From Zygnema cylindricum (taxonomy: Eukaryota; Streptophyta; Zygnematophyceae; Zygnematales; Zygnemataceae): a DNA stretch of 64,000 bases. The stretch is taken from contig JBBHKE010003466.1 of assembly GCA_037447655.1 (NCBI GenBank), positions 228,921-292,920 on the forward strand, written 5' to 3'. The notes under the pieces were generated by a model. That model made no database searches and had not been told where the DNA came from. It saw only the letters and a program-made list of their open reading frames with translations. This document shows, piece after piece, positions 2,307 to 44,877 of the stretch (position 1 is the first letter of the stretch; the number at the start of each line of letters is the position of its first letter). Position numbers and translations under genes: made by a program.

Positions 2307-3345
2307 AAAAAAATGATTCGGAGTTTATTTTACCTTTTTTTGTGACCGCGAACGGAAAACGTTGTTTGTTACAAATATCTTTGTTAGCGCAAACTCAAAT
2401 TTGTGTTAGATACATGGTTATGGTTTTTTTAACTTTTTTTTTGAGCGCTAACAATATCAAGAGTTTGTTACCACTATTGTTGTTAGCACAAACACAAACT
2501 TGTGTTATAAACATGGTTAGAGTTTATTTTACCTCTTTTTGAGACCGCGAACAATAAACGTTGTTTGTTACAAATATCTTTGTTAGCGCAAACTCAAATT
2601 TGTGTCAAAAACTTGGTTTAGGGATTTTTTTAACTAATTTTGTGAGCGTTAACAATATAATGTGTTTGTTACCACTATTGGTGATAGTGCAAACACAAAC
2701 TTGTGTTGTTAACATGGTTCGGAGTTTATTTTACCTCTTTTTGTGACCGCGAACAACAAACGTTGTTTGTTACAAATATCTTTGTTAGCGCAAAATCAAA
2801 TTTGTGTTAGAACCATGGTTTAAGGTTTTTTTTTAACTATTTTGTGAGCATTAACAATATAAAGTGTTTGTTACCACTATTGTTGTAAGTGCAAACACAA
2901 ACTTGTGTTATTATCATGGTTTAGAGTTTATTTTACCTCTTTTTGTGACCGTGAACAATAAACGTTGTTTGTTACAAATATTTTTATTAGCGCAAACTCA
3001 AATTTGTGTTATAAACAAGGTTTAGGGTTTTTTTTAACTATTTTGTGAGCGTTAACAATGTAAAGTGTTTGTTACCACTATTGTTGTTAGCACAAAAACA
3101 AACTTGTGTTATAAACATGGTTCGGAGTATATTTTACCTCTTTTTTTGACCGTAAACAACGGACGTTGTTTGTTACAAATTTCTTTGTTAGCGCAAACTC
3201 AAATTTGTGTTAGAAACATGGTTTAGGGTTTTTTTTAACTATTTAGTGAGCGTTAACAATATAAAGTGTTTGTTACCACTATTGTTGTCAGCGCAAACAC
3301 TAACTTGTGTTTTAAACATGTTTTGTAGTTTATTTTACCTCTTTT
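2307..3345 (+). repeat. Satellite array 1, ~202-bp dimer of ~100-bp monomers
   Basis: TTTATTTTACCTC recurs at about 2523, 2725, 2927, 3128 and 3329, a spacing of 201-202 bases. Each unit has two related ~100-base halves. One reads about GACCGCGAACAATAAACG with TTTGTTAGCGCAAACTCAAA, the other about GAGCGTTAACAATATAAAG with TTGTTAGCGCAAACACAAA. This is therefore a higher-order dimer array of about five units. Short open frames inside are by-products. The array starts directly at the 3' end of a family-A LTR and is repeated in inverted orientation at 4395-5645. Confidence 0.92.
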
Positions 3346-4036: not shown

Positions 4037-4394
4037 TAAACTTGATTGGTCAAGAGATCAGTAGATAGACACTCAGTGTATAAAGTTTAGGACTTAGAAA
4101 TATTTTGATATCTAGTATTGAGATAATGCAAATCTGAATACAATTTTTGTGAAACTTGCAGATGTAATATCTTATGGTTTACTAGTTCAATTGTGCTGTA
4201 ATTTTGGGAATTGACAGTTTGTATGCTTGTGATATTGTTTGCCGAATTTGGTGAGATTTGTAATTGTGAATAAGGTATTATATTTGGGGAAACATTAGTG
4301 TTTGATTGGTTTCTTGGTTAGCTTTTGTTTAAGTTATGTCTACTTCTACCACTATTGCTGTAGCTCCACCTGTATTAATATTCATAGAACAACA
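4037..4394 (+). repeat. Copia family-B LTR, 3' part
   Basis: This matches the 3' third of the family-B LTRs at 21442-22427 (minus) and 55607-56643 (plus), including GACTTAG, TATCTTATGGTTTAC and the gag start ATGTCTACTTCTACCACT (M-S-T-S-T-T). It ends in GAACAACA at 4394, exactly where family-B LTRs end. The next bases are satellite array 2 rather than a priming site. Confidence 0.75.
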
Positions 4395-5645
4395 GATATT
4401 TGTATCAAACAACGTATATCGTTCGCGGTCACAAAAAGAGGTAAAATATACTTTGAACCATGTTTATAACACAAGTTTGTGTTTGTGCTAACAACAATAG
4501 TGGTAACAAACACTTGATATTGTTAGCGCTCACAAAAATAGTTAAAAAAAACTATAACAATGTATCTAACACAAATTTGAGTTTGCGTTAACAAAGATAT
4601 TTTTAACAAACAACGTTTATCGTTCGCGGTCACAAAAAGAGGTAAAATAAACTCTGAATCATGTTTTTATCACAAGTTTATGTTTGCGCAAACAACAATA
4701 GTGGTAACAAACACTTTATATTGTTAACCCTCACAAAAATTCTAAAAAAAAACCCTAAACCGTGTTTCTAACACAAATTTGAGTTTGCGATAACATTGTT
4801 AGTTGTAACGAACAACGTTTATTGTTCGCGGTCACAAAAAGAGGTAAAATAAACTCCGAACCATGTTTATAACCCAAGTTTGTGTTTGCGCTTACAACTA
4901 TAGTGGTAACAAACTCTTTATATTGTTAGCGCTCACAACAATTGTTAAAAAAACCATAAACTGTGTACCTAACACAAATTTGAGTTTGAGCTAACAAAGA
5001 TATTTGTAACAAACAACGTTTATCGTTCGCGGTTACAAAAAAAGGTAAAATAAACTCTGAATCATGTTTTTATCACAAGTTTTTTTTTGCGGAAACAACA
5101 ATAGTGGTAACAAACACTTTATATTGTTAACCATTACAAAAATATTAGAAAAAAACCCTAAACCATGTTTCTAACACAAGTTTGAGTTTGCGCTAATAAA
5201 GATTTTTGTAACAAACAACGTTTATTGTTCGCGGTCACAAAAAGAGGTAAAATAAACTCCGAACCATGTTAACAACACATGTTTGTGCTTGTGCTAACAA
5301 CAATAGTAGTAAAAAACACTTTATATTGTTAATGCTCACAAAATTAGATAAAAAAAACCCAAAACCATGTTTCTAACACAAGTTTGTGTTTGCGCTAACA
5401 ACAACAGTGTTAACTAACTCTTTATATTGTTAATGCACGAAAAAATAGTTAAAAAAAAACATAAACCATATTTCTAACACAAATTTTGAGTTTGTGTTAA
5501 CAAAGGTATTTGTATCAAACAACGTTTATTGCTCGTGGTCACAAAAAGAGGTAAAATAAACTCCAAAACATGTTTATAACAGAAGTTTGTGTTTGCGCTA
5601 ACAACAAAAGTGGTAACAAACACTTTCTTTTGTTAGCGCTCACAA
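4395..5645 (-). repeat. Satellite array 2, inverted copy of array 1
   Basis: The same ~202-base dimer as array 1 is seen on the opposite strand, with blocks such as CGTTTATCGTTCGCGGTCAC and AGAGGTAAAATAAACTC recurring at about 200-base steps for about six units. It starts directly after the 3' end of a family-B LTR and ends abruptly inside copia pol coding sequence near 5646. Arrays 1 and 2 are divergent copies separated by about 1 kb of LTR sequence, which makes a large inverted repeat. Confidence 0.92.
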
Positions 5646-7410
5646 AATACCAAAAACTCCTCTCCCTGAAGGTGAAACCCAATCACAAGCAGAATCACTT
5701 GTATCAAGGAGGAGGACCCAACCATCTATACCAGCGATAGAATCTCCAAGTGGAGTGAGGCGAAGTGCACGACTCATAGGAGCAAATGCAGCTTTTGCTC
5801 ACTCAACACACATAGAAGAGCCTCTAACATTGACAAAAGCTTTTTCGAGTGATGAAAAGCAACATTGGGTTGAAGTGGTCAATGAAGAAATGAAGTCCAT
5901 CATGGAGGCCCAAACGTGGGGTTTGGTGGAACTTCCTCCAAGAAGGAAGGCTATTGGGAGTAAATGGGTGTTTATGTTAAAATTGAACCCAGATAATACC
6001 ATAGACAGGTATAAGGCTCGGTTGGTTGCTAAAGGATATAATCAAAAGGAGGGGATAGATTATGAAGAAACTTTCTCCCCTGTTGTAAGGTTTCCATCAG
6101 TCCGCATCTTACTTACACTAGCTACCATAGAGGATTTTGACATTCACCAAATGGATGTCAAATTTGCCTTTTTGCATGGTGATTAAGATGAGGTCATTTA
6201 CATGAAGCAACCAGAGGGTTATAAGGAAGCAGGAAAAGAAAATCTTGTGTGCAGACTTTTAAAATCTTTGTATGGCTTGAAGCAAGCCCCAAGACAGTGG
6301 AACTGAAAATTAGATTAGTTCTTGAGAGGATTAGGATTTACTAGAATTAGTTTTGATCATTCAGTTTATGTGATGTGTGGTGATAATCCTGATGAGGTGA
6401 TATTCATTGCTGTGTATGTTGATGATCTGCTACTAATCAGTAGGAACAAAGAGGGAATTGCTAGAGTAAAACACGCTCTTAATTCACAATTTGAAATGAA
6501 GGATTTGGGTGAGGCTAAATATATCATTGGAATACAAGTTGTAAGTGATAGAGAAAAGAAAAAAATTAGGCAAACTCAAAAAGAAGCGATAGGAAACATG
6601 TTGGAAAAATTTGGCTTGGCTGATGCCAAAGGTTGTGCAACTCCTATGGAGTATAAGCAGAAACTTGTAGGAATAGTGCATGAGTGTAGATTCAGAATAG
6701 ATGAGGAACTGAGTGCAGAAGAGCAAAAATTTATGTCCTAAGTACCTTATAGACAAGTAGTAAGAAGTCTGATATACTTCATGAATTGTACTAGGCCTGA
6801 TATTGTTGCAGCTGTTGGTGTATTGAGCAGAAGTCTGCAAAACCCACAAAAGAAAGACAGGGAGGCAGCAAAAAGTGTCTTAAGGTATCTTGTTGGGACT
6901 AGAAATCTTTGGCTTACTTTGGGAGGGGCCAAGGTTGGCATTAATACTTGGAGGGATGCTAGCTATGGTGATGTGTCTAGTAGGAAGTCTACAACTGGGT
7001 ATGTCATTCAGATTGGAAGTGGTACTTGTAGTTGGAGTAGTAAACTTCAGAAGCTCACGGCTCAATCTACTATGGAAGCCGAATACATGGTAGCGAGCGC
7101 AGCCTTGAGAGAGTTGCTTTGGATTAAGGCGATTCTCTAAGAATTGAGTTTTACGCAACACGGGACACAAATTATATGGTGCGACAATCAAACAACTATT
7201 TCTATGGCTACAAACCCAAGTCATCATTTTAAGAGTAAATATGTGGACATTTGGCTACATTTGGTACATGAGAAAGTATTTGCAAAAGTGGTAAAACTTT
7301 GTTTTTTGCCTGATGAGAAAATGGTTACGGACATGTTGACAAAAGCCCTTCCCGCTCCTAAGTTGGAGTACTGCAGAAAAGCATGTGGTTTAAGTGAGAA
7401 AGTCTTCTAA
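5646..7410 (+). pseudogene. Ty1/copia pol (RT-RNase H), one frame with five stops
   Basis: A single frame from about 5650 to 7410 encodes the end of integrase and linker (RRRTQPSIPAIESP), the RT (KWVFMLKLNPDNTIDRYKAR, then FDIHQMDVKFAFLHGD, SLYGLKQAPRQWN, and YVDDLLLIS near 6415) and RNase H (SRKSTTGYV, TMEAEYM, DNQTTISMATNPSHHFKSKY). The frame is kept throughout but has stops at 6184 (TAA), 6304 (TGA), 6316 (TAG), 6739 (TAA) and 7138 (TAA), at places where the intact relative in element C has sense codons. A purine tract (AAGGGGAG) and a family-A LTR follow at once, so this is the 3' end of a family-A element. Its 5' half was replaced by, or joined to, satellite array 2. Confidence 0.92.
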
Positions 7411-7426
7411 AGCTGAAGGGGAGTAT

Positions 7427-8094
7427 TGAAAAGTAAGCTTTAGTAAGTCTTAGAAATTTGAGTCTAAAACTTAGAATATTTTTGGAATACCAACTGTTCA
7501 ATATTGACAAAATTTAGTGTGGATTTTTTTGTAGTATCTACAAGAATTGATATCTTTAAGTTAATTAGTGTGTAGGGCCGCCAATGAATGTAGACGTGAT
7601 AAGAATTACCCGGATTTTTAAGGTATAGATATTGTTAGTGGACAATTCTGGTCCAAACACATAGATTTTTGTCAGTAGGGTGTATGGTGAACCATGTACA
7701 TACGTTTTAGATGTTTTCTAGATCTTTTAGATGTTTTTTAGATATTTTTGATTTTTTCTAGATCTTTTGAGTATTTAGTTCAATTAGGATTGATCAATTC
7801 AATACAGAATGTACATTCTACACAGAGTTGAAGGAAATGAGAGCACTAAATGCACTTTAAGGTGTTTTTCTATTTTATTGTCCTTATTTTGGCTGTGGTA
7901 TATGATTGTCTGGTTGTAAGACCGTTCTCACTTACAGCTACATATCTTACAACATAGATATAGTCAAATAGGTATTTCTTTTTGGGTTTGCTTCTGCTGC
8001 CATGTCTACTAATAGCTCAGTCCCTCTTGGTGCAAGTGTGACGCCTAGTGGGAGTGGAACACAGCCAAGTCAGAATGCTCATGACCTAAAATAG
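7427..8094 (+). mobile_element. Copia family-A 3' LTR, slightly 3'-truncated
   Basis: The LTR starts just after the purine tract that follows the pol frame ending at 7410. It contains the family blocks AGGGCCGCCAATGAATG, TAGATGTTTTCTAGATC and GATTGATCAATTCAATAC, and an in-LTR gag start at about 8002 reading M-S-T-N-S-S-V-P-L-G-A-S-V-T-P. The match stops at about 8094, some 12 bases before the expected TTCAACA end, where an inverted family-A gag fragment begins. Confidence 0.82.
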
Positions 8095-8474
8095 TAGTCT
8101 GAAGAAACAACCTTTTCATAACATGACAATGATCTGACATACTACCTCCAAAATACTTTATTTCAAAAATCTGAGTGGCTATGTTTGTCTGGACGATAAC
8201 ATCTAGCTGAACATACATAGCACATACACGAAACCAAACTTCAGAGGCTTTCTTCATCTCAAGTTATGACATTACAAAATCTTTTGTTATAGACTGCTTC
8301 AAGACGTTAAGGCAGTGGAGATTCTTTTTTCTCCAATCCGGCGCAGTCACATCCGTTGTTCCTTCCACAATGAGTGACAAGTCCCTCTCCTCGAAATATG
8401 AGCTCAAAATATTTTCCCACTATAAGAAGTCAGTTCCGTCAAAAATAGGAAATTTGGGCGGTGGGCCTATAACC
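8095..8474 (-). pseudogene. Copia family-A gag, N-terminal part, decayed
   Basis: The minus strand encodes the start of gag downstream of the family-A LTR at 8475-9175. The frame begins inside the LTR (ATG at about 8626) and crosses the priming site. It reads VIGPPPKFPIFDGTDF and later MKKASEVWFRVCAMYV with IFEIKYFGGSMSDHC, typical of the UBN2-type gag domain of plant copia elements. Stops interrupt it after FDGTDFL and before MKKASEV. It joins head-on to the plus-strand family-A LTR at about 8095, so the rest of the element is missing. Confidence 0.8.
8461..8474 (-). promoter_or_regulatory. Primer binding site, family A (initiator tRNA-Met anticodon arm)
   Basis: On the minus strand GGTTATAGGCCCAC follows the LTR end directly. 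It differs at one base from the 14-base complement of the plant initiator tRNA-Met anticodon arm that is found perfectly in elements C, D and N. Confidence 0.7.
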
Positions 8475-9175
8475 TGTTGAAGGTCATGGGCATTAAGACT
8501 CGGCAGTGATCCACTCCCACTAGGAGTCACACTTGCACCAGCCGGAATATTCGTCCGTAGAAGAGTAGGCGGAGCACTAGGGCTTATAAGAGCACTTGTA
8601 ACAGGAGCTGGGCCATTATCAGACATATTAGCAGAAGCAAACCCAAAGAGAAATGCCTTGTAGACTAGATCTATAGTGTAAGATATGTTACTCTAAATGA
8701 AAGAGGTCTTTCAACCAAACAAACATGTACAACAAGCAAATCAAAGACAATAGAGCTTATAACACCTGAAACTACACTTAGTGCTCTCATTTCCTTAACT
8801 CTTGTGTCGAATGTACATTCTGTGTTGAATTGATCAATCCTAATTGAACTAAATACTTAAAAGATATAGAAAACATCTAAAAGATCTAGAAAAAATCTAA
8901 AACTTATGTACAGGGTTCACCTAAATATCTACTGACAAAAATCTAAGTACTTGGACCGAATTGTCTAGTAACAATATCTAGACCCTAAAAATCCAGGAGA
9001 TATGTTTCACCTCTACATTCATAGGCGGCCGTACACACTAATTTACTTAAGATAGCTTTTTAAGAAGATACTAAAAATCCACACAAAATATAGCTAATAT
9101 TGAATAGTTGGTGGTCCAAAAATATTCTAAGTACTGGACTCAAATTCTTAAGACTTACTAAAGCTTAATTTTCAA
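8475..9175 (-). mobile_element. Copia family-A 5' LTR
   Basis: This is a full-length family-A LTR (about 700 bases) on the minus strand. It starts TTGAAAATTAAGC at 9175 and ends CTTCAACA at 8475. It is followed by the priming site and gag, so it is a 5' LTR. The in-LTR gag start is at 8626. Its outer edge touches the 40-bp satellite array at 9176. Confidence 0.8.
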
Positions 9176-10006
9176 TGAGTTAGGTAACAGTTTCTATTAG
9201 TGCTAACAGTTTGTGTTAGTTAGGTAACAATTCTTGTTAGCGTTAATAGTTTGTGTAAGTTAGGTAACAATTACTGTTAGCGCTAACAGTTTGTGTAATT
9301 TAGGTAACAATTCTTGTTAGCGCTAGTAGTTTGTGTAATTTAGATAACAATTTTTGTGACCGCTAACAAATTGTGTAAGTTGGGTTACAATACCTATCAG
9401 CGCAAACAATTTTTGTAAGATGGGTAACAATTTCTGTTAAGGCTAATAGTTTGTGTAAGTTAGGTAACAATTCCTGTTAGCGCTAACAGTTTGTATAAGT
9501 TAGGTAACAATTCTTGGTAGCGCTAATAGTTCGTGTAATTAAGATAACCATTTTTGTTATCGCTAACAGTTTGTGTAATTAAGATAAAAATTCATGTCAG
9601 CCCTAAATGTTTAAGTTATTAGATAACATTTCCTATTACCGCTAACTGTTTGTGTAATTTAGATAACATTTTTTGTTAGCGCTAACAATTGTGTAAGTTA
9701 GGTAACAATTCTTGTTAGGGCTAATAGTTTGTGTATTTAAGATAACAATTCTTGTTAGCGCTTACAATTTGGGTAAGTTAGTTGGTCATTCCCATTAGCG
9801 CTAATTGTTTGTGTAATTTAGAAAAAAATTATTGTTTGCACTAACAGTTTGTGTAAATTAGGTAACAATTCTTGTTAGCGCTTACAATTTGGGTAAGTTA
9901 GGTAACGATTCCTATTAGCGCTAATAGTTTGTGTATTTTATATAACAATTCAAGTTAGCGCTAACTGTTTGTGTAAGTTAGGTGAGATCTCTTATTAGCG
10001 CTATTG
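9176..10006 (+). repeat. 40-bp satellite array with GTTAGCGCTAAC palindrome
   Basis: About 20 copies of a 40-base unit read roughly TTAGGTAACAATTCTTGTTA followed by GCGCTAACAGTTTGTGTAAG. Starts at 9181, 9221, 9261, 9301 and 9341 show the exact period. The centre of each unit is the perfect 12-base palindrome GTTAGCGCTAAC or a close variant. The array lies between a family-A LTR and the broken 3' end of the gypsy integrase. The GTTAGCGC core is shared with the ~100-bp satellite at 2307-5645. No spacers separate the units, so it is not a CRISPR array. Confidence 0.94.
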
Positions 10007-10790
10007 CCGTCCATCTTTGGAAGGACCAGTGCTTGGGCCGAGGCAGCGCCGGGGAGAATGGGATACCGTCCAAACAAAATGATATATGGGCTCTAGGTGT
10101 GGAGGGATGCTTGCTGGCTGAATGAGTACCCCATGGCGATCCAAGGCATCCTTCTATCCCACTCTCCTAGATCCTCTTCCACAACATATTTACGTAGTGA
10201 CCACTTGACTGTCTCCACGCACCTTTCGCCCAAACCATCGGCTTGTGGGTGGTCTCGGCTAGTCAGCCGATGGTCTATGAGGCATAATTCCAACAAGTTG
10301 GAGAATTCTCTCCCAAATCCGGAGCCTTGGTCAGTCAGAACTTCGGCTGGTGCCCCAAATTGGGAAAGCACTCTTTGCAAGAATGCGTCCGCAATCGCCT
10401 TAGACTCCTTCCTCAGGAAGACCACCAATTCGATCCACTTGGAAAAATTCTCTATCATTACGAATACAAAGCGGTTCCCTCGTTTGGTAGTGGGGAGAGG
10501 ACACAGCAGATCCAGAGACCACCGATAAAACATTCCCCTGATGGGAAGGGAATGAAGTTGAGAACCTCCCTTTTTGTCAAAAGCTGCTTTGACTCTGTCA
10601 CAGGAGGAACACGTCTGCACAATCCGATTGACGTGGGTCCGCAACCCGTGCCACCATTACGATCCTGCGACCAAGGAGGTGGTCCTTTTCTACCCAAAAT
10701 GGCCACACTACTGGTGAAGGTTAAAAATAAGAGTCTCCCCGTCGGCCGGGGGACGAACCACTTTCCTTGTCCCATCAGCCCACTTCCGTA
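10007..10790 (-). pseudogene. Gypsy integrase, 3'-truncated
   Basis: The minus strand encodes an integrase. The zinc-binding end is seen as LRTHVNRIVQTCSSCDRVKA (about 10655-10590). The catalytic core follows: first Asp in YRWSLDLLCPLP, second Asp in VLTDQGSGFG, and Glu in LGERCVETVKWSLRKYV. The open piece is 10093-10644. Upstream the frame shifts near 10650, where HFGRKR and the His ligands would lie. After the core, PWIAMGYSFS leads to a partly readable tail that ends at the satellite at 10006. The C-terminal domain is missing. Confidence 0.88.
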
Positions 10791-11009
10791 TTAAGAGGCC
10801 CTTTTCGCACTCGTATGCCGCCATTCGTGTTTGCATCGGAGATAACTGTACTCCTGACAAATGCGGAAGAGGGTAACCTTGTTGGAGAGATTAGAGAGCC
10901 TCTGGATCATTCCAAATATCTTTCCTTCCGGCCCCTATTGGCGCCTGCCCCTCCACGTCCGCAGAGAAAGTGGACAATTCCCCCCCAGATTGAGGAAGCC
11001 AAATAAAGG

Positions 11010-12460
11010 GAGAGGAAGCTCAAATGAGTCCGAAACTGATTTCAGGATCCTCATCATGGCGGGCCCCGGTGGAATCTCTAGTGGAAGGGTCAGGATTTCT
11101 ACTAAGTCTGTCGGCATTCCCATGAATCTTCCCGGCCCGGTGGATTATGTCGATGTCATATTCCTGCAGTATTAACACCCACCTGGCGAGCTTGCCAGTG
11201 AGCTTGCTGTTCTCCATGATCCACTTTAGAGGTTGGTGTCTGTGATCAGAGTTAAATGGACTCCGTATAGGTATGGTCTAAAGTGTTGGATGGCCCATAC
11301 CGCCGCCTGTAATTCCTCGTGATAGCTGCACTAATTCCCCTCCGCTCGGTGATTACACCTACTGCGTAAGCTACCACATATTCGGCCCTAGCATCATCCA
11401 GTTGGGCTAGAACAGCTCCCAATCCAAACCGGCTCCAATCAGTGTAATTGAGGAAGGGTCTTTGGTGATCAGGCATTCGGTGTACTGGGTGTTGCTTCAG
11501 GGAATCCTTGAGGAACAGGAAGGCAATTTGTTGCTCCTCCATCCACTACCACTTCGGTCTTTCCGCAGCAACTGGTTCAGAGGCTGAGCGTGCCTGCTAA
11601 ATTCAGGGATGAATCTCCGATAATTGATAGCCAGGCCTAAAAATGTGAGGAGTGCAAAGACGTCCTAAGAAGGGGGTAGGGCGTCAAGGGCTGGAACTTT
11701 GACCATATGGGGACCCACTGTCCCGGTTGTAACTTCGTGTCCCAAGTAAATATTTTTTTGCACCCCAAAAATTCCCTTACCCGGGTGACATTTGAAGCTC
11801 GCTACTTAGAGAGCTCGGAGTACAATCTATATGTGCTCCAGGTGTTCCTCAAAGGTCTTCGAGAATATAATAACATCGTCCATATAGCACTTTGAATTGT
11901 CAATCCCCCAGAGCGCCTCGTCCATGGCAAGTTGGAATTTGGCTGGCGCATTCTTCAATCCGAATGGCATGTAGAGCCATTTATTCAACCTAACCCTGCC
12001 CAAAAAGTTGTCCTTTCTCGGTGCTTTGGCTCCATCCCGATCTGGTGGAACCCATTCTTCATGTCTAGTGTGGAGTAAATGGTGGCCCCTGCCAACGAGT
12101 CAAAAATCTCTTCCGGGGTAGGCATTGGGTATCGGTCAGGTATAGTTGCCATGTTAAGCATCCGGTAATCTCCACACATCCGAAAGTCTACCGTTTTCCC
12201 AGATGAGTCCTTCTTGGGTGGGAGAACAGTTGGAGACGCAAATCCATGGAGTCCGGTACTTTCTTGCACCAATCTTGCTTCTACCAGAGTTTGTACCTTT
12301 GCCATGATGAACTCCTTTTTCTTGAAACTGAGAGGGTATTGCTTCTGCCAAACAGTACACGTCTTGTCTATTAAATCAATTTGAAAAGGGGTTCTTTTGT
12401 AGATGCCTACGTCCGTATCTGACCAAGAGAACACTTGTTTGTTCTTCTCCAACTGGTTGG
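11010..12460 (-). pseudogene. Gypsy reverse transcriptase and RNase H, frameshifted
   Basis: The RT begins near 12452 with KNKQVFSWSDTDVGIYKRTP. Fingers and palm are clear: RMCGDYRMLNMATIPDRYPM, then GATIYSTLDMKNGFHQIGM with the first catalytic Asp. After a frameshift near 11990 come YMPFGLKNAPAKFQ and the catalytic YMDDVIIFS near 11890. RNase H follows, with FLNYTDWSRFGLGAVLAQLD (11470-11410) and its end KLARWVLILQEYDIDIIHRA with GNADRLSR near 11120. YMDD stands where many plant gypsy elements have YIDD. Frameshifts and stops separate the pieces. Confidence 0.9.
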
Positions 12461-12839
12461 AGAGCTAGGACTTTTGCTGAGGGTCTAACTGCTCCCCTAA
12501 AGTCCAATCCATCTTTCCGGGTTCCACCGCTGCCCAGGCAGCCGAGGGTCTACCCCAGCGGGAGATTGAATTCCATCTCTACTTGCGCGTCTACCTTGTT
12601 TCCTCCCGTTAGAATGCTGCTGCTAACAACTTCCGCTATGTTATCCCTTTTCGAGCCTCTGCTCCCATCAGTGAGGAATCCCTTAATTTCGGTAAAATTC
12701 TGGGACTAGAAAATTTTGATGATAAAAATTGTTTTCTTGCCTCCCTCCATTCCTCAAGCTGCAAGTGGGCCTGCAACGATAACAACTTTGGAGCTTGAAG
12801 GTAGCGATTCCTCGATTGCGGAGACTGTATGCTAGAGAA

Positions 12840-13816
12840 GGATAGAGAATATTTTATCACCCAAGTTATTGCATTTAGATCCATGATTTGTCCGAGTAGG
12901 CTACACCGCTGGAGGTCTGAAATACCTGGTGCCGCCGTGCTGACAGGTTGGAATCCCATGGCTTGTTCTTGTTCTTTCACCGTTGGCGTTTTCCAAGCTC
13001 CACAAATATCATTCCTGACGCGCCCTTTCGATACGCATGGCTGTTGGGGAAGGAAACCAATGTTGGCAGTGCTCGCCGTGGTGCTCTTGGTTGGTTACAC
13101 TGGAAGAACGGAGGACGATCAGCCTTAGTTATCAGAGTGGCCATCCGTCCTGGCCCTAAAGTTTGTTGCAGGGTAATCTAGGGATCTGATTGGTGGTTCT
13201 GTAAGAGCTGGTTCAAGACTGACATAGGTATCAAATTGGTCCAGTATGCCCGATCTCTGTGAGCCCTGGATCCCAGTTGCGCTACATCAAAAACAAGTGG
13301 AGCTCCTAGAATTTGCTTGACTTTATTCCTGCTATTTGCGACTTGTTTTCTCTTATCATCTCCTAGGTGGACATTCTCCAAAACGTACCCCACTGGTTGC
13401 TCTTGGGACTGCTGCAGCCAGGAAAGTAATTTGATCATCTGGAAGAAGGTTCGACTTCTGCTGTCTTGATGTCCCTCGCCTTTCCCGGCTAGAGAGTATC
13501 CTTGACATGGCCATCCTGCAATCACCAAATCCACTCGCTCCAGCATAGCGAGATGTGGCTTGAGGATATGGTCTATATTTTGCGGAACACTTTGGTGAGA
13601 TCTGCAGATGGCGGATATCGAAAGTTGCTGGGGATACAATTGGTGGAGTTGTTGTAGTCCGTATTCACTAACGGCCCAGGTATCCGGTGAAATTTCCACG
13701 GCCATATATGACTGCACTTTGTGCCCAGCTTTCAAGACAGCTTCGAGGTCCGAGCTAATTCCAGAAAATAGGGATAATATCCGGAGTCCAGAATCCGGGA
13801 TAGATAATGACACCAC
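12840..13816 (-). pseudogene. Cytosine-C5 DNA methyltransferase domain inside gypsy pol
   Basis: The domain would transfer a methyl group from S-adenosylmethionine to carbon 5 of cytosine in DNA. From 13816 an open frame of 212 codons shows motif I (LSLFSGIS, residues 14-21), motif II (VEIS, Glu41), motif IV with the catalytic Cys in GWPCQGYS (PCQ at 103-105), motif VI (ENV, 147-149) and motif VIII (RDRAYWTN, 187-194). After a single in-frame TAG at 13178 the same frame continues with ALPTLVSFPNSHAYRKG to about 12985. A one-base slip then leads to motifs IX-X as EQEQAMGF and DLQRCSLLGQIMDLNAITW (12970-12870). Motif order is the normal I to X, not the permuted order of plant DRM enzymes. The domain sits between retropepsin and RT. 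The start is uncertain, since it was probably part of a polyprotein. Confidence 0.92.
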
Positions 13817-13989
13817 TTGTTGATTGAATTTTTAATTTTCCGGCGGAACTTCCGAAGATTCCAACCGAAGTCCTTCTTCTTTCACAAAAATAGCTGTGAA
13901 GGATTTGTCCACTTCCCGCCGAAGTTTTGTTATTTGTAATAATCTGTTCTGGTATCCTTCTTCCCACCGCTTGGAAATAGGGAATTACT

Positions 13990-14797
13990 ATATTATGTTT
14001 GCGATATCGGTGGCGCTGGCAAGCAGTTCCGTTGGTGTGTGAGTTGCATAGACGGGATAACATCCTGCGACAGGAGCATTATCTTTCCCCCTATTCCATA
14101 GATCAAAGGGAACCACCACCTTGACTCCTTTTGGATCCTTAGGATCCCTTACACTAAACTCCTCCTTCCACACACTTTATCCTATATTCACCCTTGTCTA
14201 GGTGGCCATTCCCAATAAAATCTCAAAATGCTTACCTTCCACCACCAAGAAAGGAAGCTGAATTCGAACCTTTTGACGTGCGTTGTCGGCGAACTCTATT
14301 TACATAGCTTTGATTATTCCGTGGACCGGTTGGCTCCCACTACTAACAATACTTAGACAAATGTCACTGGGGAAGATTTCCGGTCGGAGTTCTTCCGGCA
14401 TTTGCTGTAGAGCCGATGTGGTGATTAGATTTAGGAGTGCTCCTGTGTCGACCACTGCGTCTTCATACCCGCCGTATCCGTTGAGTTTGAAATTCCCAGT
14501 CCGGTTGAGAATTAGAGCCACAAATAACGTTTTGTAGTCCCTATCCATCATAGGTGTTTTTGGGTCGGCTGACCAAAAAACGGATCTGTCCTGATCGGCC
14601 TGGTGTTTCTCCCCTCCTGAATGGATTTCCTCTCCGAGGGCTTGGATGAGAACTTCCTCCGGTAAGTTATGAGAAGAGGCCAGTGTTTTCACGTGTTTGA
14701 GAGTGTAAGGCATTAGATGCCTTACTAACATCACTGCTGGTTTGGAGGAAGGAGGTTGAATTTTTGGCGACGAAATGGAGGAATCTATTGGTTCCAC
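13990..14797 (-). pseudogene. Gypsy retropepsin-like protease region
   Basis: The 165-codon open piece 14300-14797 ends with the aspartic protease active site AVVDTGALLNLITTSALQQM, where Asp-Thr-Gly-Ala is the catalytic loop. Downstream in a shifted frame are VRIQLPFLVVEGKHFEILLGM (14280-14210; the ILLGM resembles the protease flap end) and, after two stops, VPFDLWNRGKDNAPVAGCYP (14100-14040). The latter links to the methyltransferase. The upstream part (LVRHLMPYTLKHVKTLA) is not recognised. Confidence 0.8.
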
Positions 14798-16383
14798 CGG
14801 TTGATTCTTCTCCCCCCCCCTGCTTCCTCAATTTCTTGGTCGGATTCTAGCATGGGCGACGTTTCTGGTGTGTTATCCTCTGGGCATTCCGCCAAGTATT
14901 TTTCGAACCAGTCTTGGTTTTCACGCGTCTCTTCCTCCTTTGGTTGTTCCTCCATCTTCCTTGTTTTTGTTGTCCTGTAATTTTCGAATCCCGAAGGCAA
15001 TTTTGTTGCAGCTGGTGGAGGTGGGTTTGTAGATTTTATTCCGAGACCTATGTTGTCGTTCACCATGACGGACTTGGGGGTGATTGATAGAGGTTTAGTA
15101 ACGTTCCTGTTGTGGTCTGTTGGTGCGAGCTTTTGCCTTCCCTTTGCTACACCAAGGTTGTGTTGCGTAGCTGCCTACAATTGTCTCCTACACTGACATT
15201 CCAGGCTCTAGAAAGGAAGGTCGTTGCGTGATGTGTTTTAGGAGGTTCCAGGTCCCATCCAATCACCTCGTCATCGTCTTCTCCAGCTGCCGTTTTCTGT
15301 TCAGGCTCCGCCAGCTTCTGTAGTAATACCTGTTTTCTCCGGTGGAGTTTCAGGGTGGCCGTCAAAGCGAGGGTCCTAGAGGGCGATCCTAGTCGCAGCG
15401 CTGCAAATTCTGTAGCCATGGCTGCCATTTGATGGCTCTACTATTGGATGATAACCTCCGAGGTTAACCGAGCTTGACTTCTTGGCTGTCGTTCTGGGTT
15501 CTCTGGGGTGCGGCGTCCCCAAGGGTAAAGAAGCTGCAATGAGAGTGGATTCACGGCAATTTCACCTTCTTCGGTGAACAGTGCATATTGCATCATCTCT
15601 TTAGGAACTCCATTCTTTCGGAAGCAAAGCCATTCTTTGTGACCCATGAAACCGCAGGCCTCACACTTGGATCCCTCGGTAGTATATTTGCCCCTCAATT
15701 CATTGGAGATTTGCGCGTCATCAAATTTTGGAAGTTTTTGGAAGTTATATTTCTCGCAACTGGGCTTGCGACATCTTTACAGTCTCATATATTGGCATTA
15801 GCCAGTAGTTGTCTTTGTTCACCGGTATTTTATTGTCTGACCCTCCTCCTTGCTTCCTTTCTTCCTGCCTCTTTATCCTTTCAGCTCTGTCCTTCTCCCA
15901 TTGTTTATGCTTAAGAGCTAATTCCGGTTTGAGCTTCCGAGGCATCGTTTCCATCCATGACCTGTTTGTTGACAGTTTAAATAGTTATAGAGGAAGACAC
16001 GGTCATCGGCTCCCATGGCAGGTTCGGATCCGCTATCCACCACCTGTTTCCCCTTGAGCTTCTGCAAGGCTAAGAGTTCGGCCGACTCTTCATTTTCGGG
16101 AGGCATTTCTCCGGCAAATCGTGCAAAGCTCCCTTGGGTTTTTCCTGGTTATCGCATTTTCTTGGGCCTCTCGGTGGACAAAGTGATCATAAAGCTTCAT
16201 TCCGGCCATAGAGATTTCTTTGGCGGTTGGATTGATGTCTTGGATGGCTTGTGCCGCAATCCAATTATCGAGGGCGGCCTGCCCCGTCGGTCTGAATGAA
16301 TTTCGGACGGCGATGAAATATTTGGTTGCCTTGGCCGGAAGATCAATGGTTGAGATTTTGGTCTTTTGACAAAGGCTAGACAA
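14785..16383 (-). pseudogene. Gypsy gag C-terminal half with CCHC zinc knuckle
   Basis: Consecutive minus-strand pieces in changing frames make the nucleocapsid part of gag. The piece 16090-16383 (KATKYFIAVRNSFRPTGQAA) looks like the end of capsid. Basic stretches follow (EKDRAERIKRQEERKQ, 15900-15850). The zinc knuckle is CEACGFMGHKEWLC at about 15665-15625, a standard C-X2-C-X4-H-X4-C RNA-binding motif. The linker 15147-15428 and 14785-15066 is charged and of low complexity (KTRKMEEQPKEEETREN) and leads to the protease. Frameshifts separate the pieces. Confidence 0.75.
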
Positions 16384-16479
16384 TCTGTTAAAAAGAGTCA
16401 GGGGTCTTTCATTCTTTTGGCAACGGAATTCTGTGAATTCCTTGATAGCAGATTCATTCCTCTCGGTGTAAAGGAGTCT

Positions 16480-17078
16480 CTAGGCATTCAAAAGAGTAGT
16501 ACAGGGGTTGGGTCTGCAACCCTTCGGGTGGCTGCCCTGGCCTCTTGGATGGTCTGAAGCTGAGCGACATATGCTCGTCCTTGTGCTTGTAGTTTCATGT
16601 CCTCTGTGAAGAGGGCGGTGATAGCAGCAGCTGTAGGAGCAGCCCAAGTCTGCTTCCACCTGCAAGACTGCCTCATTAAGGATAGGGTCTGAAATTTTGA
16701 TGCTGGGAGCCATCAAAAGAGGTTGTTGCTCCTTGTAGTCAGCCAAAGCGCCCCAAGCAAGATAGTTCACCATCATGGGAAAAAGCGTGGTCTCGAAGTC
16801 ATCTGGAATAGCTCCGGCCCTGTATTTGTTGATTTCAGATTGGGTGAACGACTTCCACAACAATTCCAAATCAGAGAAAGCGATTCCTGAGTTATCTCCT
16901 GTAAAGATCCTTGCGTCCCCCATTTCTTTTTCCTCCTCTGCCAAGTTAGTGAACTGAGAAGAGGATGGTTCGGTTGGGCTAACAAACTGAACCGGTGAAA
17001 TAACCCTTGGGTCTGCGTCGTCTGGCTCGGGCCCGCCTCATTCTCTGGTAGATGGAGTTGTTTCACGAGAGATGGCAC
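16480..17078 (-). pseudogene. Gypsy gag N-terminal half
   Basis: A frame readable from about 17050 reads PVQFVSPTEPSSSQF and then from 16944 MGDARIFTGDNSGIAFSDLE, followed by LLWKSFTQSEINKYRAGAIP and MMVNYLAWGALADYKEQQPL. This is capsid-like helical sequence for which I know no closer family. The frame slips at about 16670 and continues in the next frame as AAAITALFTEDMKLQAQGRA to 16488. An in-frame TGA at about 17042 breaks the extreme N-terminus. The gag assignment comes from position upstream of the zinc knuckle. Confidence 0.6.
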
Positions 17079-17510
17079 TCCCCCCCACTGAGGAAGTTCC
17101 GGTTACTGGTTGGATAGTGAGATGAACTGTATCTCCCTAGAGTTGGCCCTTGGGCAGCAAGAGGCTTTTCACTTTAAGAAAAGTTGCTCGAAGTCTTGCT
17201 CCTATATACCCAAGGGAGGCCCGTTCCTGTCGGCGAACTGTTTCCACCGAGGGAATGTGGAGAATATGTTAAATCACTGGTGGTCCTTGAGGGATTGGTG
17301 GAGAAAGGGATGGAGATGACTGAGGACTACGAGGGAAGGTGTCTGTCTCCGTGTACGCCTTCGGTAGGTTTTTGGTGGAGGAGTTCCTTCGCTGAAATCG
17401 GGAGATTGCAGTGAGGAGGAGAGTGGGTAGGAATGTCGTACTTGTAGGGTAAGACAGGTGGTCCCGGTGACCCACGTATTGCAGCGGCCGGAGAAACAGA
17501 AGGTGAAGGA
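17079..17510. other. Probable gypsy leader, no gene seen
   Basis: These 430 bases lie between gag and the family-C LTR. No priming site of the TGGTATCAGAGC type and no coding frame is visible. An open frame of 109 codons on minus (17269-17598) crosses into the LTR fragment and is judged accidental. Confidence 0.4.
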
Positions 17511-18131
17511 TGTAGAAACTAATGGTCTTATTAGTATTATCTAGGTCTGAAAAGAAATATAGAAGTCGAGGCAGTCTATCTCTAACTTCTCTCTCCAACT
17601 CTCAAACTTGTCGCAGTCACTGAGAAATTGGAGAGGAAGCTCGAGCCATGGCTACCTTGGCTATCCTGAGGTTTACGAGAAATTTATATTAGGGTTTATA
17701 TATTTATTTAAAAGGTATGTGCCGGCGGCAGGATTTGATCCTTGTACCTACCGGCCGGCAGACAGGAAATAGTCGGTAGCCTTAGCCGTTAAGTCTAGCG
17801 GTAGTGTTACGTATTATATAGTTTGATGTTTATTTAAATATGTATACGTGCGATAAACCATTTAACTGAAATGAATTACGGGATACATAGATCTAGTTAT
17901 ATATAATGTACGACTTACGGTACGGACTAAATCAGTACCGAGCATTTGTTTCGTAAATGAAACAAATACCGCACATGTATTTATTACGGCTACGATTAAA
18001 TCCGAATTTAATCGGACGGCCGGGATTAGCGCCGAGATCGCGGAGGAAGATTTTGGCGGTTTGTGGCCATCGCCACATCGGATGACGCGTGGCGAAATTC
18101 CGTTGGATTGTGGAATCTCCGGAGATTATAC
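17511..18131 (+). repeat. Copia family-C LTR fragment (5' ~620 bases)
   Basis: This segment starts TGTAGAAACTAATGG, the same LTR start as at 44877 on minus. It matches the first ~620 of 1049 bases of the element-C LTRs, then stops at about 18131 inside CTCCGGAGATTAT. It keeps the TATA-like TTATATATAAT at 17897-17907, the hairpin around ATTTGTTTC and GAAACAAAT (17944-17967) and the tRNA-like block at 17717-17812. The other side is directly joined to a decayed family-B gag. Confidence 0.88.
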
Positions 18132-34477: not shown

Positions 34478-35526
34478 TGAAACTCTGAGACCTCCATAAG
34501 TCCTCAGAGTGGACAGCTTCCAAGAAGCCTCTAGGATAATCCTGACCCCTTTGTGTTTAAGCAAAAATAACTGCCACCCTGGCAGACAAAAACTCTGACC
34601 AACTTCAGCCCTGTGAAGACAAGACTCCCCTGAGTCGATAGCAAAAAGAATCTCTGAATTTGCTCCCCTGAGCAGTAAGTTATGGAGGGTCAAAGTTGAC
34701 CTTTTGTACAGAAGCTCTCTGGGAGAGGGGGTCCTATCTTCTAATTTTTCTAAGTCCTATCTCTCTCACAGACTCTATCTACTGATGTACGGAACCAATC
34801 AGAATTGAGTTCCGTACGCAAAAGTACAGCTGCCGGTGTACTTTATGTACGGACATTGTACGACATGGCCAAAATGTCGACACATGTCAAATCCGGATTC
34901 GGTGCCATAATCTCCGGAGTTTCCACAATCCAACGGAATTTTGCCACGCGTCATCCGATGTGGCGATGGCAACAAACCGCCGAAATCTTCCTCCGCGATC
35001 TCGGCGCTAATCCCGGCCGTCCGATTAAATTCGGCTTTAATCGTAGCCGTAATAAATACATGCGCGGTATTTGTTTCATTTACGAAACAAATGCGCGGTA
35101 CTGATTTTTGTCCGTACCGTAAGTCGTACATTATATATTACTGGATCTATGTATCCCGTAATTAATTCTAGTTAAATGGTTTATCGCTTGTATACATATG
35201 TAAATAATTATCAAACTATATGCTAGGTAACACTACCGCTAGACGAAACGGCTAAGGCTACCGGCTACATTGTGTCTACCGGCCGGCAGGTACAAGGATC
35301 AAATCCTGCCGCCGGCACATACATTTTAATTAAATATATAAACCCTAATATAAAATTCCCGTAAACCTCAGGATAGCCAAGGTAGCCATGGCTCTAGCTT
35401 CCTCTCCAATTTCTCAGTGACTGCGACAAGTTTGAGAGTTGGAGAGAGAAGTTAGAGATAGACTGCCTCGACTTCTATATTTCTTTTCAGACCTAGAAAA
35501 TACTAATAAAACCATTAGTTTCAACA
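34478..35526 (-). repeat. Element C 3' LTR
   Basis: On the minus strand it starts TGTTGAAACTAATGG at 35526, just after the purine tract AAAATAAGGGGAG, and ends AGAGTTTCA at 34478. It has a TATA-like element at 35130-35140, a hairpin with stem ATTTGTTTC/GAAACAAAT (35069-35092) just downstream in the sense direction, and an antisense tRNA-like block at 35226-35322. Confidence 0.95.
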
Positions 35527-43848: not shown

Positions 43849-44877
43849 AAGTCCTCAGAGTGGACAGCTTCCAAGAAGCCTCTAAGATAATCCTGACCCC
43901 TTTGTGTTTAAGCAAAAATAACTGCCACCCTGGCAGACAAAAACTCTGACCAACTTCACCCCTGTGAAGACAAGACTCCCCTGAGTCGATAGCAAAAAAA
44001 ATCTCTGAATTTGCTCCCCTGAGCAGTAAGTTATGGAGGGTCAAAGTTGACCTTTTGTACAGAAGCTCTCTGGGAGAGGGGGTCCTATATTCTAATTTTT
44101 CTAAGTCCTATCTCTCTCACAAACTCTATCTACTGATGTACGGAACCAATCAGAATTGAGTTCCGTACGCAAAAGTACAGCTGCCGGTGTACTTTATGTA
44201 CGGACATTGTACGACATGGTCAAAATGTCGACACATGTCAAATCCGGATTCGGTGCCATAATCTCCGGAGTTTCCACAATCCAACGGAATTTTGCCACGC
44301 GTCATCCGATGTGGCGATGGCCACAAACCGCCGAAATCTTCCTCCGCGATCTCGGCGCTAATCCCGGCCGTCCGATTAAATTCGGCTTTAATCGTAGCCG
44401 TAATAAATACATGCGCGGTATTTGTTTCATTTACGAAACAAATGCGCGGTACTGATTTTTGTCCGTACCGTAAGTCGTACATTATATATTACTGGATCTA
44501 TGTATCCCGTAATTAATTCTAGTTAAATGGTTTATCGCTTGTATACATATGTAAATAATTATCAAACTATATGCTAGGTAACACTACCGCTAGACGAAAC
44601 GGCTAAGGCTACCGGCTACATTGTGTCTACCGGCCGGCAGGTACAAGGATCAAATCCTGCCGCCGGCACATACATTTTAATTAAATATATAAACCCTAAT
44701 ATAAAATTCCCGTAAACCTCAGGATAGCCAAGGTAGCCATGGCTGTAGCTTCCTCTCCAATTTCTCAGTGACTGCGACAAGTTTGAGAGTTGGAGAGAGA
44801 AGTTAGAGATAGACTGCCTCGACTTCTATATTTCTTTTCAGACCTAGAAAATACTAATAAAACCATTAGTTTCTACA
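43829..44877 (-). repeat. Element C 5' LTR
   Basis: The 1049-base LTR starts TGTAGAAACTAATGG at 44877 and ends AGAGTTTCA at 43829 on the minus strand. A TATA-like ATATATAAT lies near 44482-44490, a hairpin (44420-44443) about 40 bases downstream in the sense direction, and a tRNA-like block at 44577-44673. The gag start is at 43848. Confidence 0.95.

Follow-up and report, generated by a model that had tools for sequence, protein, structure and literature searches.

Introduction

Why would a retrotransposon carry the enzyme for a mark that silences it? The question is raised by a 64,000-nucleotide stretch of the streptophyte Zygnema cylindricum (assembly GCA_037447655.1, contig JBBHKE010003466.1, positions 228,921 to 292,920, forward strand; the whole stretch is called the window below), in which a degenerate Ty3/gypsy element on the minus strand has a C5-cytosine DNA methyltransferase (DNMT) between its protease and its reverse transcriptase (RT). 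The element almost certainly belongs to a Ty3/gypsy family with a DNMT in its polyprotein, as a dead copy that has lost both ends; members of this family have inserted recently in the same genome, subfamily A including very young copies. Since one genome contains young and old copies, subfamilies with PCQ or ECQ in the catalytic motif, and a PHD finger in the polyprotein, the role of a methyl mark on new cDNA becomes testable; in addition, the arrangement of the repeats suggests that the integrase of a retroelement may work at a circle junction.

A DNMT within a gypsy polyprotein

On the minus strand, from 17510 to 10007, the domains follow in the order gag, CCHC knuckle, protease, DNMT, RT, ribonuclease H (RNase H) and integrase (Table 1), and the copy is collinear with a better kept relative, L099, over three DNA segments (17510-15514, 14836-12781 and 12638-10009). 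An earlier note, made from the letters of the window, had placed methyltransferase motifs in normal order between retropepsin and RT on one strand of a gypsy element, and this is borne out by the alignment to L099 and by Pfam, which was run on separate pieces of the minus strand: DNA_methylase matches 13816-13178 with an E-value of 1.1e-11 and rve is matched at 9.3e-12, while RVT_1 falls just below the cut-off (8.8e-7, piece 12452-11985). In the translation, VVDTGA of the retropepsin lies at about 14455-14438 and YMDD of the RT at 11886-11875. Motifs I, IV (PCQ), VI (ENV) and VIII of the DNMT stand within one open frame, 13816-13181, and the C-terminal motifs in the next one; the order from I to X is normal and not circularly permuted, which excludes the DRM arrangement. 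The length of the open stretch alone is not decisive, because in a set of 300 first-order random sequences 15 have 212 open codons or more; here homology decides. Identity to L099 is 72% over 13825-13004 and 56% over 13031-12801, and because of this alignment the C-terminal piece, which by itself gives no DNMT match in Pfam, nor in PDB up to E 10, is accepted as DNMT. The protease piece has no Pfam protease match.

Over 573 codons, the frame shared by protease and DNMT has 7 stops and the other two have 32 and 24; over 368 codons, the frame shared by the DNMT C-terminus and RT has 5 stops and the other two have 19 and 10. Continuity on both sides implies a single net frame change on the way from the protease into RT, and it falls inside the DNMT. 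Since its frames are common with the protease and with RT, the DNMT belongs to the polyprotein of the gypsy element to which the earlier note had assigned it, and its in-frame fusion is as good as certain. The copy itself is cut within gag, at 17510, by a copia long terminal repeat (LTR), and after the integrase, at about 10007, where it adjoins a 40-bp tandem array; its own terminal repeats were not found in the window, and its PHD finger is missing with the 3' cut.

The family in the Zygnema genome

A search of the genome (352.8 Mb in 2689 contigs) gave at least 123 DNA_methylase matches at E <= 0.001, the window included (782 candidates, 123 scored). Twenty-three places were examined, namely 20 fetched loci, L090, L094 and the window, in a choice that favoured long open frames and high scores and left 100 of the 123 listed matches unread. 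All but one are retro-DNMTs (the window and 21 others). The exception, L112/L093 (G000:C514:126680-126928), is an exon whose best matches are 9mvy, 7ubu and 4fsx, a group that we take to be plant chromomethylases such as ZMET2, which points to a plant-lineage host; the exon scores 102 bits there and 51 with the next group, both groups being named DNMT1. A DNMT was found in 19 of the 20 fetched loci, with the family RT downstream in 16 of these 19, and the better kept copies contain the DNMT domain with no host gene boundary seen.

L095 is a single frame of 2395 codons, whose pieces match zf-CCHC, Asp_protease_2 (0.0013, below the cut-off), DNA_methylase, RVT_1, RNase H, Integrase_H2C2, rve and PHD (3e-10) in Pfam; rve is matched and no tyrosine-recombinase family at E <= 0.01. 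The order gag-protease-RT-RNase H-integrase of Ty3/gypsy Pol is met in the window and in the better kept copies. The PHD finger follows the integrase; it reaches 0.0041, below the cut-off, in L099, and tblastn matches to it occur in 10 of the 20 loci. Its best PDB matches in L095 are PHF12, Lid (KDM5), BAZ2B and WSTF, and PHD fingers of the PHF12, KDM5, BAZ2 and WSTF type read histone H3. The polyprotein joins a predicted epigenetic writer, the DNMT, with a predicted reader, the PHD finger.

The 22 retro-DNMTs split into subfamilies A and B with 11 copies each, the window copy being in B. The catalytic PCQ reads ECQ in all 11 A copies (L090, L095-L097, L100-L104, L106 and L108), among which are the youngest insertions; the catalytic Cys, ENV/ENI and RxR are kept, and so are motifs I, VI, VIII and X where readable. 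In L106 a stretch of about 1.5 kb (7012-8483) lies between RT and RNase H and is probably a nested insertion. The A copy of L108 stands between the arms of an inverted repeat (1-889 and 8245-9134, about 890 bp, 97% alike), unlike the direct layout elsewhere. A distant gypsy lineage of the same genome, L108/L131 (RT 33%), has a protease-like stretch and then RT, with no DNMT match between them at E below 0.6 in this single distant case.

The class of the methyltransferase

The best PDB matches of the window frame are DNMT3C, 3A and 3B (42.6 to 33 bits), followed by HhaI (27 bits), with DNMT2 and 4onj, which is presumably plant DRM, at E 0.13-1; DNMT1 is absent among the 51 PDB sequences matched up to E 10. 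The L099 domain matches DNMT3A with 57.6 bits (E 1.1e-14) and DRM2 with E 0.002. For an AlphaFold model with a mean pLDDT of 70, to which 49 viral relatives contributed, all 50 Foldseek matches listed are DNMT3 structures. Therefore the window domain is DNMT3-like in sequence and in its modelled fold, where the name means the 'DNMT3-like group' and not 'animal DNMT3', because a control phage methyltransferase likewise ranks DNMT3 first.

The main tree has as rows 8 retro-DNMTs, namely the window and 7 of the 11 copies free of stops, together with DNMT3A/3C and 24 viral proteins out of 62 usable ones; plant DNMT3, DRM, CMT and DNMT5 have no rows in the trees. In it the retro-DNMTs form one clade with support 100/99, in which the window groups with the B copies (94/83). 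Kinship with DNMT3 is neither shown nor rejected (approximately unbiased test, p-AU 0.173 with the 8 retro rows); in a first tree, with the window as the lone retro row, its branch was very long and p-AU for retro plus DNMT3 was 0.53. With viral proteins, which were chosen for similarity to it, the window DNMT reaches 69.9 bits at most, and with DNMT3A/3C 40-43 bits. An origin from a phage methylase was tried, and the trees do not decide on it. Scans of viral_contigs and genome_contigs with the DNMT frame gave no relative, nor did a scan of viral_contigs with the window RT.

Selection on the domain

The earlier note had counted one stop and one slip in the DNMT, fewer than in gag or integrase, and had suggested that this may reflect past selection. 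The counts stand: relative to L099 there are one stop (TAG) and one slip in 345 codons of DNMT, three stops and one slip in 255 of RT, two and two in 160 of RNase H, four and none in 250 of integrase, and nine or more stops in gag. At the stop frequency of the other three pol domains, RT, RNase H and integrase (9 stops in 665 codons), about 4.7 stops would be expected in the DNMT (Poisson probability about 0.05, computed by hand). However, the DNMT is the least conserved pol domain by identity to L099 (72/56%, against 92/78% for RT and 85% for integrase), and the low stop count of this dead copy is weak evidence for selection.

The suggestion of past selection is supported from another side, by the ratio of nonsynonymous to synonymous substitution rates (dN/dS) of the DNMT between stop-free copies (11 of 21 loci). 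In A it is 0.16-0.17 for the 2 of 15 pairs that were measurable, the rest being saturated in dS or too close, and these two pairs amount to little more than one comparison, L095 and L096 being almost identical. In B it is 0.12-0.37, with a median of 0.25 (9 of 10 pairs); RT gives 0.02-0.33 (10 of 42 within-subfamily pairs). These values support purifying selection on the retro-DNMT.

Split terminal repeats and a primer site

L095 has the layout A-coding-B-A-B, with a repeat A of 931 bp (100% identical) and a repeat B of 243 bp (99.6%). In L100 repeat A has about 1385 bp (99.6%) and in L101 1475 bp (99.5%). All three insertions begin with TG, end with CA and are flanked by 4-bp target duplications (TTGG in L095, AAGG in L100, CCCT in L101); a purine tract precedes the first B, and the junction between the first B and the second A reads ATGCACGACA-GC-TGTCATGCC. 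The layout recurs in L111, of subfamily B (A 83%, B 95%), again with CA-GC-TG at the junction. The full layout was present in 4 of the 8 places looked at, the two-nucleotide GC spacer is identical in these four copies, and plain LTRs with target duplications were seen in none of the eight.

A stretch that spans the end of the first A and the positions just beyond it pairs perfectly with a segment inside A in L095, L100, L101 and L097, over 18, 21, 21 and 15 nt respectively, the segment beginning 338-901 nt into the repeat; none of 500 shuffles reached such a length in any of these four A copies tested. The letters of the site differ among three lineages (L100 and L101 being equal), and the pairing is retained. 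LTR elements of the Tf1 type are self-primed, with a primer site complementary to a segment inside the element. The pairing makes self-priming in subfamily A likely.

Because the putative primer site follows A and the purine tract precedes B, the cDNA would begin with B on its left and end with A on its right. An integrated copy starts with the TG of A and finishes with the CA of B, two ends that adjoin nowhere but at the internal B-A junction, so that the integrase would have to act there. A circular intermediate is suggested because A-coding-B-A-B follows if a cDNA closed end to end is opened at one such junction; on this anatomy, we consider a circle or concatemer step before integration somewhat better than an even prospect.

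A proposed replication route and its alternatives

Taken as a whole, the observations are probably best explained as follows. In subfamily A only, the 5' end of the RNA would fold back onto the site just after repeat A and prime reverse transcription, as in Tf1. The DNMT, being part of Pol, would be carried in the particle and may methylate cytosines of the new double-stranded cDNA. This cDNA, with ends B and A fixed by the purine tract and the primer site, would be closed into a circle or a concatemer, and the DDE integrase, possibly helped by a PHD finger that reads the H3 tail, would open the CA-GC-TG junction between B and A. Insertion with a 4-bp target duplication would give A-coding-B-A-B, and the methyl marks could make the new copy resemble resident, already silenced DNA; the earlier note had likewise suggested that self-methylation could serve to hide or restrain the element. 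Integration from a circle junction has been rejected for retroviruses and is common in other mobile DNA. That the retro-DNMT methylates the element's own cDNA appears from the sequences to be possible, with the balance tipped slightly towards no, and it is less likely for A, where PCQ has become ECQ. A little more tentative still is the fully specified form, that a gypsy lineage has joined a DNMT3-like writer with a PHD reader, that its DDE integrase works on circular, pre-methylated cDNA by a templated CA-GC-TG cut inside the repeats and not at the cDNA ends, and that its youngest subfamily is self-primed.

Several observations weigh against this proposal. Methyltransferase activity of A is doubtful because Glu replaces the Pro of the catalytic motif in all 11 copies, and the ranking of the phage control and the trees, both given above, leave the DNMT3 affinity loose. 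The split layout was not seen in four of the eight places: L103 has no A pair in the stretch read, L097 has an older A pair (89%) and no B pair in the stretch read, and L098 and L099, both of B, have no A or B repeats in the stretches read. The left end of L111 is mutated and its target duplication not readable. A self-complementary primer site is absent from the three B copies (L111, L098 and L099), where the best pairing is 6-7 nt and most shuffles reach it; the test is softer for L098 and L099 because their end of A was set from L111. Finally, the observed/expected ratio (o/e) of CpG is 0.89-0.94 in three young A copies, almost without depletion, so that they bear no footprint of heavy CG methylation, and the value of 0.64 in the window copy is no lower than that of nearby copia copies (0.37-0.56). 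Two B copies have 0.66-0.67. Where CG in L099 or the window stands opposite TG or CA in the other, it is in L099 98 times and in the window 47 times, in line with deamination of methylated CG in a dead copy. CpG loss as a footprint of self-methylation was rejected, as the window, the A and B copies and the nearby copia give no distinctive signal.

Among the alternatives, the one that survives best holds that what DNMT and PHD finger work on is host chromatin, at the insertion site or close by, so as to target and mark a safe, silent niche, and not the cDNA before integration. The PHD finger does follow the integrase, where chromoviruses carry a chromodomain, and its best PDB matches include the H3 readers PHF12, KDM5, BAZ2 and WSTF; the DNMT, however, stands between protease and RT and not beside the integrase, and we regard this alternative as rather unlikely. 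It is less likely again that the A domain no longer methylates and is kept for another role, such as binding DNA or RNA, oligomerisation or blocking host DNMTs. ECQ in every A copy, with motifs I, VI, VIII and X kept where readable and the youngest copies included, would be expected under such a change of role; on the other hand, Cys, ENV/ENI and RxR are retained, and dN/dS is 0.16-0.17 in the two measurable A pairs, nearly one comparison. Ordinary LTR recombination or tandem insertion, with no special integration route, may in general produce odd repeat layouts, and half of the eight places lack the full one. As a source of these split repeats it is nevertheless improbable, since A-coding-B-A-B is common to four copies of two subfamilies, three of the four are flanked by different 4-bp duplications, all four have the same GC spacer, and a DIRS-like layout is named for Klebsormidium nitens in a published legend (PMC5890265). 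A host DNMT gene or pseudogene lying by chance inside a gypsy fragment, with which the broken window copy, its ends lost, would by itself be compatible, is rejected with hardly any doubt, given a DNMT on the strand and in the frame of protease and RT, L095 and its kin with the domains in one frame (2395 codons in L095), RT downstream at 16 of 19 DNMT loci, and a single retro-DNMT clade.

Relation to known elements

The A copies resemble Tf1 in a primer site just after the left repeat that is complementary to a segment of the element itself; they differ in that the Zygnema family has split repeats, and the complement lies 338-901 nt inside A and is seen in A only. Phage DNMT3-like C5 methyltransferases share about 28-37% identity over the catalytic half and the PCQ motif, but they are free-standing proteins, and the retro-DNMTs form their own clade.

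A gypsy element with a DNMT is already known. As described in the main text of de Mendoza et al. (2018; PMC5890265), KnitGypsy-Dnmt3 of K. nitens has its Dnmt3 inside Pol, with Ka/Ks < 0.2, and its terminal repeats are arranged in the manner of DIRS. The Zygnema family shares with it the gypsy domain set, a Dnmt3-type domain without introns or rearrangement that is read in the frame of Pol and, compared by description only, DIRS-like terminal repeats (in L095, L100, L101 and L111). Purifying selection on the DNMT is described there with Ka/Ks < 0.2; dN/dS points to it here as well, at 0.16-0.17 in the A pairs but at 0.12-0.37, partly above that bound, in B. The Zygnema family differs by the added C-terminal PHD finger, the word PHD being absent from the main text of PMC5890265, its figures apart, and, again by description, by the 4-bp target duplications, the primer-site complementarity and the ECQ subfamily. 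According to the same text, retrotransposon DNMTs can methylate CG de novo, as shown for SymbioDIRS-Dnmt3. This element and SymbioLINE-Dnmt, both of dinoflagellates, are likewise retrotransposons with a DNMT inside, but with a tyrosine recombinase (DIRS) or LINE machinery in place of the DDE integrase, and its authors consider the dinoflagellate cases independent of the charophyte one (PMC5890265). A 2025 paper notes that retrotransposons of streptophytes and of dinoflagellates include members of DNMT3, and according to a 2019 opinion paper land plants such as tracheophytes lack methylases encoded by transposons. Among Ginger1 DNA transposons (PMC2836005), one listed family encodes a gypsy-type integrase protein whose C-terminal part includes a PHD finger; these transposons have neither RT nor DNMT.

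The titles and abstract starts listed by the searches, with subscription journals mostly outside, contained no report of a retroelement with DNMT and PHD, nor of a gypsy integrase working on a circle junction. A-coding-B-A-B ends with TG..CA and 4-bp duplications, a primer site paired with the element's own repeat, and ECQ were not found in the literature searched either.

Features of the window

Table 1. Coordinates of the window element and of the LTR beside it
Feature	Position	Strand	Basis and remarks
Degenerate Ty3/gypsy-DNMT copy, subfamily B	10007..17510	-	collinearity with L099; truncated at both ends
gag remnant	15603..17509	-	tblastn with L099 ORF1, pieces 40-82%; several frames, many stops
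CCHC zinc knuckle (C-x2-C-x4-H-x4-C)	15624..15665	-	seen in translation; Pfam zf-CCHC at cut-off in related L095
Retropepsin-like protease (VVDTGA ... EILLG), one stop	14210..14470	-	translation; frame common with DNMT
C5-cytosine methyltransferase, DNMT3-like, one TAG stop, one slip	12801..13825	-	Pfam PF00145, PDB, Foldseek, L099 alignment
RT, 3 stops, one slip	11575..12338	-	RVT_1 just below cut-off; 92%/78% to L099 RT
RNase H, 2 stops, two slips	11098..11554	-	Pfam RT_RNaseH_2 1.2e-12 (11542-11252); 83-92% to L099
DDE integrase (rve) and H2C2 remnant, 4 stops, single frame	10033..10782	-	rve 9.3e-12 (10644-10093); 84.8% to L099
copia LTR adjoining truncated gypsy 5' end, outside the gypsy element	17511..18129	-	93.7-93.9% to 34907-35526 and 44258-44877

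Scans of the window with Rfam at gathering scores and for tRNA gave no match. The three copia LTR copies (17511-18129, 34907-35526 and 44258-44877) are about 94% alike, and beside the cut gypsy end no target duplication of the first is visible by eye. At 7425-9176, beside the 40-bp tandem array, there is a foldback-like structure, a long inverted repeat whose arms are about 77-87% complementary. Satellite arrays with units of 101/201 bp, which look mutually reverse-complementary, occupy 2309-3345 and 4388-5647.

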